Of a stretch of DNA of 64,000 nucleotides, positions 21,301-26,834 are shown piece by piece. The position numbers and the translations under genes were made by a program. Within the stretch, counting starts at the first letter, position 1. Each line of letters opens with the position of its first letter. Below the pieces are notes generated by a model, which did not search any database, had not been told where the DNA came from, and worked only from the letters and a program-made list of their open reading frames with translations. This stretch comes from Ricordea florida (Eukaryota > Cnidaria > Anthozoa > Corallimorpharia > Ricordeidae): assembly GCA_949710005.1 (NCBI GenBank), contig OX453277.1:11145678-11209677 (forward strand), read 5' to 3'.

Positions 21301-24300
21301 TGTACAGTGTGGTTCTAACTTTTTCATCTTTTGATCAAACCATGCAGTGTGACCATTCTTTGGAAAGCTACTGAACAGTACTGTACTGTGGTACTGTTTG
21401 TTTTACTGTACAGTGTGGTTCTAACGTTTTCATCTTTTGATCAAACCATGCAGTGTGACCATTCTTTGGAAAGCTACTTAACAGTACTGTACTGTGGTAC
21501 TGTTTGTTTTACTGTACAGTGTGGTTCTAACGTTTTCATCTTTTGATCAAACCATGCAGTGTGACCATTCTTTGGAAAGCTACTGAACAGTACTGTACTG
21601 TGGTACTGTTTGTTTTACTGTACAGTGTGGTTCTAACGTTTTCATCTTTTGATCAAAGCATGCAGTGTGACCATTCTTTGGAAAGCTACTGAACAGTACT
21701 GTACTGTGGTACTGTTTGTTTTACTGTACAGTGTGGTTCTAACGTTTTCATCTTTTGATCAAACCATGCAGTGTGACCATTCTTTGGAAAGCTAGCGAGT
21801 AGTTCTGCACTCTGGTACTGCTGGTTTTACTTTATAACGTGATTCCATCTTTTTCATCTGTGAATAAAGCCATGCAGTAATGGTAGTCACCTCAATTTGT
21901 TCCAGTTGTAAAACGTGCTGCGTCTTGGTGTTGCTCAGTGCACGCCGCGCATCATCTAGCTGTTGACGAAGCTGGAGTAAAAAGAATAATTACTGGATGT
22001 TACTACTAAAATGATTAAGAATACAAAGACCTGAGCTTTGCAATGGCTGATACCATATGGAAACTTGGTCGCAGATTAAGGAAGAATCACAGCAATCATA
22101 ATTATCAACAATGGGAATGGTAGAGCAAAGAATTAACTCTGTGTGCAAGTCTACAAATCACTGGTGAAATTCCCGATGCGCGTGTCATTTATATTCACTT
22201 TCTGATGCATATCAGAAAACGCACTCGTTCCCTGCGCTCAATTGTTTGTGTTCTGATACTTACTCAACTCGTGGATCACCCATTATCCATTAAGTAACCT
22301 CTAATAATAATAATAATAAATAATAATAATAATACTACCATTTGCGTTCAACCCTGAAGCGTGACAGTTTTTTCGCGCAAGTTTACTTTTCAAACGTAAC
22401 GGTTTCCTAGACAACTGTCTCGCATAGTCCAATGAAAGTGTCTCGTTTGGAGCGCGAAAGTGCTCACATTCCAATGTAAATACTTGCATGTTTTGCTCTC
22501 GCTATGTGCTTGTTTTGAAAATATGTCAGAGGGTTTGCGGGTTTGGCTCCGGGAAGTTGAGAAGTCAAAAGCGCGATCTCTCTAGTGTATATATTGTAAG
22601 AGCACTTTCCGTTTCGAAAAGGTCACGACGGAGCAAGGATTCTGGAATACGACCTCGATTCGTTCAAAGGAAGACGGTCATTTCTAGCGATGGAGGCAAG
22701 AAAAGTTAATAAGTTTGGGAGAACTTATCGTCCAGGGATTCCCCTAGATGAGAACTTGAAAGGGATGATTATAGATAGGATTTTGGGTGAAGGAGGTGAC
22801 AGTACTACGGCTTATATTCCACGTTCATTCAAATATTTTTCTGACGAATTACATGTTCATGTCAACACGATTAATGCGATATGGCGAAGATACTGCACGA
22901 CTACTCGCTAACTCCACGACCCAGAGGAGGCGCAAAATGGAGTAAACTTACAGAAGACGACCTCGAACTGATCGAAGTGTTAAAGATCGAGAAGCCCTCA
23001 CTTTCTCTCACAGAAATAATAAGTTGTGTGGAAGAAATGGGTGGTGAAAATGTGTCCCTTTCTGCTGTTTCGAGAGCGCTTAAACGGTTGCCATCTGGCC
23101 AATACACTAGGAAAAAGATTACAAACATTGCCATTGAACGATTTACGCCCATAAATATATTTTACACGCAGCTCTTCATCAACTATTTGGCAACTAAAAA
23201 TCCAAGGCGGCTCAAATTTTTCGACGAGGCGGGCGTTAAGCTGCCAGATGTAGGGACAAGATTATATGGTCATAGTTCATTGGGAACTCGGTGTGTTGAG
23301 GTGGTGAGAAAAACAGAATCACCAAACCTAACACTGAATATGCTAGTATCACTGGATGGCCCGGAATACTATAATTTGCTGGATGGAGCGACAAATACAG
23401 TGCGCTTTTTGCAGTTTTTCCAAGAAGCTGGGAACTCTGTGAACGTTAAAACCGGCCGACCATGTTTGGAAGTTGGTGACATATTAGTTATGGATAATTT
23501 GGGTTTACACCACTATGATGGTGGGGAAGTCTTAGAAGAATGGCTCGCTGAAATGGGAATCGAACTTCTTTATACGCCTACTTACTCTCCAGACTTCAAT
23601 CCTATCGAACTTTGCTTCAACAAGATAAAAACTGTGTTGAATGGGGAATTACAAGAACGTGTGCATTCGAACTCGAAGGTAGCTATAATGGAAGCAGTGG
23701 AAAAAATAACGACACAGGATATGGTAGGCTTCTATGAGGCCACTTCATACCTATTTGTTGACTAGTAATGCTTAGGTCATAAGAGAGTTCGTTTAACTTG
23801 ATTTGCTTTTTCACGCAACCCTATACTTTTGTTGTATCTGTAGATATGAATTAACCAGTACGTAAGACCATGAATACAACTTTATTTCCGCATTTGAAAT
23901 TCGCTTCTAGCTCACAGGTTTATGTATTGAACCTTAAAAGATAAGTTTACTTTTCTGTTGTTTCTGTAATTCAGCAAATAAAATATGAACAGTGGAGCTC
24001 CATATTTCGAACATGTTATAAACACAACAAAAATGTCACGTAAACGTAGGTGAATGTAACGCCGTTGCAGACAGCGTGATCCCGTTTTGAGTTTTAGGAT
24101 TTCACCGAGTGCAAGAGCTGTTCTAAAATCCCTCCCAGATTCTCGGGTTTAACTTAACACAAGAACTTTGTAAATTTTGGTGAAGCAAACTTGCGTTAAC
24201 ACAACGTGTACGAACACAGCGTACAGTTGTTTAAAGATTGCCAATTAAAGCTGGATACAGAGCTCGTTGTTCAAATGGACTCATAGCTCACTAGTTTATG

Positions 24301-26834
24301 ATGACACTGATTCCTGCTCCTTCTGTAAAGCAGCAAACAAAACATTAGCAGTACGCTATTGGTATACAAGGACTGAACGTTTTCAACAACTCAAAGCAAT
24401 ACCGAAGTGCGGTATGAAGTTGCATGCCTGTCACACGCTTGGGTTGGCTTTATGAGCAAACTAGGTACGTTCTTGAAGTTTTTTTCTTAGTATGTTCATA
24501 AAATTAGATCAACCTCAGCCTCAAGGTTTTTGTAAAAGAGGTACTTACAAGAAAAGAGCGTGGTTCTCCGGATTTCGAACTTGCCAGTTTACAAACACAA
24601 CACAGGGTCCTCACGCCGGAACAAAGAAAACACTTATTTTTGTGAAGCAAAGTGTAAACAAATCAGTGCTGTGATTAGATTCCCAAGCAAAATGATAACC
24701 TTACAGACTTCCTGCGTGTGACGGTGTACTCCCGGGGGTGTACTACTCGGCAGCATTTTTACGACTTAAGCTCAACAGGAGGTTTGCCGCCTCTTCTGCC
24801 GCCGTAGGCTCTACGGTAGACTTCGGGTTAGTGTTTGTAGTCGCGCATGTTGAAGTACTTGTGCTGGGCACTTGCTCCTGATCCAAAGAAGCATTGTTCA
24901 TTCTGTTCGCAAAATGGCGACCATAAAATGGGATCGGTGGTACAAATGGAGGAGTAAGGAAAGGGTTGCCCATGATTCGAAAAGGAACAGGGGAATCTGT
25001 CTTTTGGCGCAAACTTTCTCTCACTACAATGGCAAGTTGCTCTGCTTCTTCTTCTTCATTTTTTGGAGCAGTGTACAAAATCGCAGAAGGTTCTTTAAAT
25101 TCTCTCGTTTCAAAGTCACAATCTTGTGCGCTTGCACGAGGAAACTTGATCCCCTGCCGCTCTAGTTGAGATTTTGCAGGGTTATTTTCGCGCTTCTTGC
25201 ACCTTGACAACTTGGCGACTGGTTTGTCTTCATCTTCCGTGGAAAGCGCTTTTTCCAGGACCTTAGTAACATCGTTCTTTCCAGGTATCTTGCCTCCTAG
25301 ATGTTTCTTGGAATACTGTTCTACAAGGTATACATGCTTTCTTAGTAAAGACCAGTTCTTGTTCCCACTGACAAGATAACCTTCTCGATTTGCCTGAAAC
25401 AAATCACTCTCGATCCTGTTTGTTTGCTTGTCGTTCATCGCTTGCAATGCCGCTCTTTTATTTTCTAACTCGGATTGCAATTTCCTCAGTTCTAGTTCGT
25501 TTTTACGTACCTGGTTTCGCATTTCTCTCATATTAACCTCCCCGCTATGGAACTTTTCTTCGCCGCACTTAAATACGGATGTACAGCGCCCGTACTGGCA
25601 TGTGCGCGCGGAATGTCCCAGTCGTAAATGACAACTTCTACAAATGTTTCCATCTCGTGGATCAGATTTTACCCGCTCCAGTTTAGCCAAGATCGAGTTC
25701 TCTCTCTGCTTAAGTTGATCATTGCGCTCCTGCATGTGAATGATCTGTTCTTCGGTTTTTGCTATATACCGCTCGAGAGGGGTTTGCTGCTTGCTATCGC
25801 CGGCTTTGTGAGTTGCACGAACCACGATCCTATCAGATTTTTCGAACTCACACAATTCCCCGTCGCACAGATCGTCACACTTGGAGTTATTTTGAAGACT
25901 TAGAGACCTTCTGGCTTTCAAAGATTCTGGCCTAGTATATTTGGCTTCGTGTTTGTCAGCCTCTTGCCTCTGCACTCGGTTCTCGGTATCCACCTGTTGA
26001 ACGGACGGACTGTCAAACGAGAACGCTTGTATCGTGAGATTTCGCTGCTTTCCAAGCATCTCTTTCATTTGCAAATTAAAATATACAGGACTTAGGTCAA
26101 TCCCCAAGTCTTCGTCATTCATGGTTAATCGAAGGCTCGCTGCGGAAGTTGACTTGGCTAGGTAAGGCACCTCTCTTAAAAGTCGCGCTTTGAAGGAATC
26201 AAAGTCGCATTCCAGAATTTCGTCTTCTGTGATGAAGAATGGTGTTGTCCTTTTGGAAGCATAATAATCATAAACTACTCTTATCTGCACCAAAGACATC
26301 GCACTTTTGACTTCTTAACTTCTCGGTGAAACCAGCAAACCCCTTTAATATATTTTCAAAACCTGCACATAGCGAGAGCAAAACATGCAAGTATTTACAT
26401 TGGAATGTGAGCACTTTCGCGCTCTAAACGAGACACTTTCATTGGACTATGCGAGACAGTTGTCTAGGAAACCGTTATGTTTGAAAAGTAAACTTGCGCG
26501 AAAAAACCGTCACGCTTCAGGGTTGAACGCAAATGGTAGTAATTATATCTCTCAGTTAGTAGGCGCGCTGTGATTGGTCAATTGAAGTACGCACATTGAA
26601 GTACGCACATTGAAGTACGCACATTGAAGTACGGCCGCTAAATTCAAAAGTTTCTTTTGAGATATAATAAATATCTTACAAACCTTGTTTTCTCGGTCCG
26701 TACTGTAAGTTACGGATCCTCGTTTTTCCGCTGGGATTTATGGCCCGCGCGCTTCGCTCTTAGGCCGTAAATCCCAGCGGAAAAACTCGGTCCGTAGCTT
26801 ACAGTACGGACCTCAAACTCGGTTAGTAAGAGGT

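Follow-up and report, generated by a model that had tools for sequence, protein, structure and literature searches.

The window analyzed here, a 64,000-nucleotide stretch of the corallimorpharian Ricordea florida (contig OX453277.1), contains at 22335-26539 a DNA transposon of 4,205 bp, in which a DD37E transposase gene and a second gene, ORF2 (open reading frame 2), converge on one another within a single pair of terminal inverted repeats (TIRs). The window copy and its near-identical copies represent an IS630/Tc1/mariner-type DNA transposon with two genes, and very probably belong to a two-gene lineage. A first-pass annotation of the window had drawn these bounds with inverted ends, had assigned the element to IS630/Tc1/mariner and had placed an intact 518-codon frame opposite the transposase between the same repeats, all of which we could confirm, the first TIR base being 22335 and the last 26539 with TA on either side. 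The family traits found comprise a DDE_3-type catalytic domain with the family spacing, the TA duplication, TIRs and a paired/helix-turn-helix DNA-binding domain; the single-gene layout, usual for the family and not defining, is departed from by the second, convergent gene.

The element, its ends and its two genes

The TIRs measure ~204 bp and begin with CTACCATTTG (a repeat search scores the inverted repeat at 211 nt and 94%), and the inverted repeat extends inward for another ~150 bp, decaying, into the first ~40 codons of ORF2; a worn copy of these codons stands on the left, directly before the transposase start at 22690. Both genes thus start just inside one repeated leader, and in L100, a divergent copy (loci from the genome search are labeled L###, public proteins P####), extending the open frame of either gene backward yields a near-identical leader peptide. 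Because the left flank of the window copy is (TAA)n, the TA found there, taken alone, proves little; duplicated TA lies in non-TAA flanks at L095, L097 and L100, and TA precedes 21 of the 22 ends bearing the terminal motif in 20 fetched loci, the exception being one end of L108.

The transposase is split over two overlapping plus-strand frames by a frameshift near 22.9 kb, and its main frame matches DDE_3 at 1.7e-19 (Pfam). The spacing of 37 residues from the second D to the E was counted in P0021, an intact public transposase of 358 aa that is 99% identical to the window main frame and identical to it over this stretch. The same gap is found in P0051, P0102, P0116, P0134, L116 and L117, and one of 38 residues in L120, L122 and L126. 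Pfam gives HTH_32 below cut-off and a weak PAX match in P0021, and window-group transposases as a profile match the paired domain weakly (1.4e-6 versus Prd).

For the ORF2 protein, the conserved order in 12 diverse members is an N-terminal domain, a TP-x-x-x-Y motif, a helix, a cluster of seven Cys/His residues, a second long helix and a W-x-LLRKH block, followed in most by an AA-containing C-terminal motif. The first-pass annotation had read the cluster as a C-x2-C-x5-H-x4-C zinc knuckle and had noted coiled coils. Those four residues are present, and three further Cys/His follow them to give seven ligands; since a CCHC zinc knuckle is spaced C-x2-C-x4-H-x4-C, the cluster is by spacing not a knuckle, and no zinc-knuckle Pfam match was found in the window ORF2. 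Ligands C223, H229, C234, C239, C245 and H251 are invariant and C220 nearly so among the 12, and the complete pattern occurs in 13 of 227 frames in 32 fetched loci, all 13 being second-gene frames, in none of 2,182 frames of at least 100 aa from 74 viral-contig loci and in none of the 62 frames of the remaining window. The coiled coils agree with two long helices predicted by a structure model (Table 1), of which the mean predicted local distance difference test score (pLDDT) is 64 overall and about 71-77 in the N-terminal region, modeled as two strands followed by helices.

This N-terminal region relates to PB1. Pfam detects PB1 (PF00564) in the homolog P0018 at 7.5e-9 and 35.9 bits, versus a cut-off of 23.6, and weakly, below cut-off, in P0008, P0011, P0013 and P0016, which makes five of ten homologs scanned; L126 (1.2e-4) and, barely, L100 (0.09) match below cut-off as well. 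A profile of window-type N-termini matches PB1-type N-termini with an E value of 5.9e-5 (probability 65), and P0018/P0019/L126 alone with 1.2e-5 (probability 81). Against a PB1 assignment stand the match of 0.037 to the PB1-type rows minus P0018/P0019/L126, the lack of a Pfam PB1 match in the window protein itself, and the dependence of the assignment there on profile comparison plus a low-confidence model. We therefore call the domain PB1-like, not PB1. Beyond it, Pfam, PDB sequence and PDB fold searches gave no name to the remainder of ORF2. At two distant loci (L122:4191-4529, minus strand, and L121:1166-1504, plus strand) a separate N-terminal frame of ~113 codons lies ahead of the zinc-cluster frame and may be an exon in which a different oligomerizing domain (SAM-like by eye) replaces PB1.

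Table 1. Features of the two-gene element, in window positions
Feature	Position	Strand	Remarks
TA target duplication, left	22333..22334	.	inside TAA repeat; other copies show a clear TA in unique flanks
Left terminal inverted repeat	22335..22538	+	opens with CTACCATTTGCG
Transposase 5' leader	22539..22689	+	extension of inverted repeat; decayed copy of second-gene start
Transposase N-terminal frame (DNA-binding part)	22690..22908	+	frameshift versus next frame near 22.9 kb; intact copies exist
Transposase main frame, DDE_3 catalytic domain, DD37E	22881..23765	+	
Intergenic stretch between the stop codons of both genes	23766..24742	.	AATAAA at 23977 (+) and 23881 (-)
Second gene (ORF2), 518 codons	24743..26299	-	intact, convergent with transposase
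ORF2 residues 257-303, second predicted long helix / coiled coil	25391..25531	-	structure model
ORF2 zinc cluster C-x2-C-x5-H-x4-C-x4-C-x5-C-x5-H	25547..25642	-	pattern search
ORF2 residues 174-212, first predicted long helix / coiled coil	25664..25780	-	structure model
ORF2 residues 1-105, PB1-like N-terminal domain	25985..26299	-	no Pfam PB1 match in window protein
Right terminal inverted repeat	26336..26539	-	
TA target duplication, right	26540..26541	.	

Copies, derivatives and distant relatives

A search of the source genome (537.8 Mb, 48 contigs) returned 85 ORF2 and 114 transposase matches, which 4.5-kb linking clustered into 108 places, all lower bounds. Among the matches listed, full-length ORF2 is found in five places, four of them intact (99-100%, the window's included) and the fifth 97% identical with two stops, and a convergent transposase adjoins each. 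Both genes are intact in L095 and L096, whereas the transposase frame is broken in the window copy and L097; the frameshift reported by the first-pass annotation is specific to the window copy, not being common to L095, L096 and L097. The C15 copy has a split transposase, the 5' part of which lies ~19 kb away, and in L100, of a subfamily 67%/49% identical, both genes are open. The window copy, L095, L096, L097 and L100, at different places, all hold both genes inside one TIR pair.

Taking as window-like a transposase of 60% identity or more, we found a convergent ORF2 in all six places in which the catalytic part is present, and convergent ORF2 sequence in 41 of the 45 with the 5' part only; among the other four is the 5' part that lies apart from the C15 copy. 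Forty places match just the 5' ends of both genes and are internal-deletion derivatives of a two-gene parent. Four of these were fetched (L111-L114), and the three with both ends found measure 1,257-1,469 bp; L106, L108, L111, L113 and L114 are all short derivatives (1,253-1,469 bp) bounded by the same TIR ends, with the 5' ends of both genes retained in L111, L113 and L114 and ORF2 parts only in L106 and L108. ORF2 sequence lacking a transposase match occurs at 16 places, and the six fetched (L105-L110) are all broken: element ends enclose L106 and L108, a single end plus a transposase trace remains in L110, an inverted repeat resembling a TIR but devoid of the end motif is present in L109, and neither ends nor such a repeat in L105 or L107. 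Among the genome matches listed, every intact full-length ORF2 is accompanied by a transposase, such that the gene was not met there as the ordinary host gene that the first-pass annotation had named as the alternative. Two ORF2-start fragments (C10:8759808-8760089 and C16:2081604-2081798) lie within long open frames (991 and 490 aa), have stops in the matched part and are perhaps insertions into or beside other genes.

The window copy differs from the three other near-identical copies by 0.5-0.7% in the transposase (six differences by DNA alignment for L095), 0.6-0.9% in the intergenic stretch and 0.4-0.5% in ORF2, with only the left TIR of L096 exceeding these values at 2.9%. Over the same three segments the window copy, L095, L096 and L097 differ by 0.3-0.9%, which indicates recent insertions, and the element appears to have been active recently. 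The suggestion, made from the intact ORF2 and the broken transposase, that the two genes are under different pressures finds no support in this near-equal divergence; about equal rates across segments mean that copies drift after insertion, as in neutral decay. ORF2 changes among the near-identical copies fall at third codon positions in 4 of 6, 6 of 8 and 6 of 7 cases, and the ratio of nonsynonymous to synonymous rates (dN/dS) is 0.27, 0.09 and 0.05, from few changes. At greater depth, the conservation of ligands and frames seen in the alignments argues for long-term selection on ORF2.

Thirty further places carry a transposase catalytic part less than 60% identical to that of the window (29-51%). 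Fifteen of these were read, namely L101-L103 and 12 (L115-L126) of the other 27, and a convergent second gene is present in 13, directly in L101-L103 and by profile or zinc cluster in 10 of L115-L126, with long open frames for both genes in L117, L120, L121 and L122. A profile built without the L120-L126 rows detects the second genes of L126 (2.1e-23), L123, L120, L121, L122 and L124 (7.8e-4), and profile-profile comparison of the second genes gives 2.1e-15 and 1.6e-13 (probability 98) over an alignment running from the N-terminal domain, across the zinc cluster, as far as the second helix. By these matches the second genes of L120-L124 and L126 are homologous to that of the window. The transposase tree, rooted with IS630-like viral-contig rows as outgroup and drawn with Tc1, mariner and pogo references left out, divides into L120/L126/L121/L124 (100/98, starred) on one side and the remaining transposases (80/90, drawn open) on the other; the D-to-E gap is 38 in members counted of the former and 37 in those of the latter, and two-gene elements occur in both. 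That distant relatives in the same genome carry the same pair points to a lasting partnership, not an accident, and the two-component lineage that the first-pass annotation had raised as a possibility is thereby largely borne out, with ORF2 present in most of the full copies examined. Adjoining the intact transposase of one distant place, L116:2245-5366 encodes a Capsid_N match below cut-off (6.9e-4), together with part of an integrase core and an A32-like ATPase (1.4e-11); the capsid-like and A32-like ATPase genes there suggest other, virus-like mobile DNA.

Protein searches returned 31 ORF2 clusters, none with a functional name, and 344 transposases, of which 120 were listed. Nine of these 120 bear organism names, all of the anthozoans Montipora, Dendronephthya, Actinia or Paramuricea. 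As an indirect test of pairing we used exact contig size: at least 10 of the 31 ORF2 clusters lie on a contig of exactly the same size as one of the 120 listed transposases, as compared to a mean of 0.21 and at most 3 in a jittered-size control, and for contigs >10 kb the count is at least 7 of 17 against 0.003. Over 11 such pairs ORF2 identity rises with transposase identity (rho 0.41), a value reached in 405 of 10,000 permutations. The window pair compared with the ten others shows 31-60% identity in ORF2 and 58-77% in the transposase, by which measure ORF2 evolves faster than the transposase. In this genome and, judged by shared contigs, elsewhere, elements of a deep lineage usually combine a DD37E transposase with a convergent gene for a PB1-like/coiled-coil/zinc-cluster/coiled-coil protein.

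Several observations weigh against this reading. L116 has an intact transposase and no second gene by the profile free of L120-L126, L125 has a broken transposase and no second gene within 3 kb, and the 12 distant places from L115-L126 were picked mostly for long frames. Among public proteins, long contigs may carry several elements, the pairs from contigs of 333 and 457 kb disagree (67% in ORF2, 55% in the transposase), and 31 ORF2 clusters versus 344 transposases leaves room for transposase-only relatives. As to selection, synonymous divergence is saturated between the window copy and L100, and ORF2 dN/dS is 0.76-0.88 in four of five comparisons of the L121-L124 group (0.13 in the fifth) and 0.54 in L117-L119; these values fall short of strong current selection, and those of the L121-L124 group are what drifting copies would give.

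What the second gene may do

The explanation we find best overall, with fair confidence, is a two-gene lineage in which ORF2 is an architectural partner of transposition; taken by itself, an accessory architectural role of the ORF2 protein remains a tentative proposal drawn from its sequence. PB1 is an oligomerizing domain, and Cys/His clusters bind zinc and nucleic acid. The shared leader at both ends suggests one promoter type and joint expression, and a promoter in each TIR copy would drive its own gene, such that both proteins would be made together. The transposase, by homology, would bind the ends with its paired-type domain and cut and paste at TA, while the ORF2 protein would multimerize through PB1 and the coiled coils and would bind nucleic acid through its zinc cluster, most likely element DNA near the ends. 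Acting with the transposase, it may then help to assemble or stabilize the synaptic complex by bridging or bending the ends.

The main rival puts ORF2 outside cut-and-paste, as a PB1/zinc-cluster protein that would bind RNA or chromatin and thereby control copy number or counteract silencing by the host. A multimerizing domain and zinc cluster would suit it equally, the faster change of ORF2 is as in host conflict, and the AATAAA motifs of Table 1 place the transcripts of both genes in possible overlap, which makes double-stranded RNA and counter-measures plausible. Quick evolution, however, equally fits an architectural protein, and none of the ORF2 proteins scanned received such a function from Pfam, which could hardly assign one. 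We regard protection or regulation as rather unlikely, and the data do not separate it from the architectural role.

A reading of ORF2 as passenger cargo, taken from the host and playing no part in transposition, would accord with the absence of the gene from L116 and L125. Its place and orientation are kept, though, where transposases are just ~30-46% identical to that of the window, zinc ligands and long frames are conserved, and among the genome matches listed no intact stand-alone ORF2 gene appears, which makes cargo improbable. For a chance nesting or fusion of two separate elements, or an assembly artifact, in the window copy one could cite the rarity of multi-gene mariner elements and nothing more; the five copies with both genes in one TIR pair, and the 40 places that match only the two 5' gene ends, the remnant expected when a two-gene parent is deleted internally, render this hardly credible.

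If a large animal lineage has fixed a second gene, Tc1/mariner elements too can depend on a partner protein, and the young copies offer material with which to test such dependence; annotation too would be affected, given second-gene clusters devoid of functional names.

Known systems, Pax-like domains and neighboring repeats

Tc1/mariner elements are the standard example of transposons with a single gene, and gene-transfer tools built on them require the transposase only. The statement of the first-pass annotation that one gene is the rule holds with ciliate exceptions, as descriptions of TBE (PMC4724952) and Tec (PMC7325037) make clear. TBE of Oxytricha is described as a Tc1/mariner element with 42 kD, 22 kD and 57 kD (zinc finger plus kinase) ORFs, telomeric repeat in its TIRs and a DD34E transposase, its extra genes being reported under purifying selection (PMC4724952). 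It resembles our element in joining a Tc1/mariner transposase to extra genes, one reversed and one with a zinc finger, inside TIRs (PMC4724952); by description the present element is set apart through its two ORFs, PB1-like domain, seven-ligand cluster, DD37E and ~204-bp TIRs, and a telomeric repeat is not found, the window TIR beginning CTACCATTTGCG. Tec of Euplotes, as described, shares the Tc1/mariner-like nature, several ORFs with one in the complement, and long TIRs, and differs in having three ORFs with a site-specific recombinase where we see two (PMC7325037); Pfam found no recombinase domain in the window proteins or the ORF2 homologs scanned.

Described DD37E groups include MS (mosquito), TRT, L18 and L31 (group names, not our loci), with L18 and MS reported from cnidarians (PMC10379824, PMC7325037). 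MS shares DD37E, the TA target and a paired-type DNA-binding domain, and is described as having one ORF of ~340 aa in elements of mostly 1.3-1.8 kb, with variants >4 kb also mentioned (PMC10379824), as compared to 4.2 kb and two ORFs in the window. Group L31 is placed as the sister of Tec (PMC10379824, PMC7325037), which makes it an attractive candidate home for the window lineage. KolobokP, likewise a lineage of DDE transposons that carry a conserved second gene, belongs to the Kolobok superfamily, has long terminal direct repeats and encodes a His-Me finger homing endonuclease as its second gene (PMC9587614). Our literature search, with Repbase, most subscription papers and the cnidarian L18 study outside its scope, returned no account of a PB1/zinc-cluster partner in Tc1/mariner.

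The sister-clade transposases (L120/L121/L122/L124/L126) carry a predicted full Pax-like paired domain. That of L120 (L120:3552-4643, minus strand) matches Pfam PAX at 1.9e-25 and aligns gap-free with the Pax-6 structure over 119 residues (2.4e-23), the Sleeping Beauty PAI piece being far weaker at 4.3e-4, and PAX is also found in L126 (9.5e-18) and L122 (2.9e-16). With Pax-6 as query against 728 sequences, L120, L121, L126 and L124 score 83, 48, 46 and 44 bits, as compared to 25 and 20 for the other transposases and the viral-contig frames. An origin of paired domains from a Tc1/mariner transposase is already held (PMC8290160), and these transposases provide a concrete set of elements on which to test it; in the alternative direction, L120 may have captured a host Pax domain. 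It is a doubtful proposal that a deep animal Tc1/mariner-type lineage is obligately two-component, needing the PB1/coiled-coil/zinc-cluster partner, and that the Pax paired domain descends from, or is closest kin to, its transposase.

Around the element the window holds several repeats. Immediately outside its right end, 14-bp direct repeats (ATTGAAGTACGCAC) lie at 26581-26633, and ~155 bp to the right of the element hairpin-forming inverted repeats with arms of 22 and 24 nt at 95-96% (26695-26812) look like a short foldback element. A 57-bp tandem array (15642-20770; 90 copies, 95% matches) can be read on its minus strand as the 19-residue repeat EEKMRKENITPSDMIRGQN, but with a longest open stretch of only 189 codons, and two further arrays, at 2387-3074 (107 bp, 6.4 copies) and 21171-21878 (106 bp, 6.6 copies), have units that look related.

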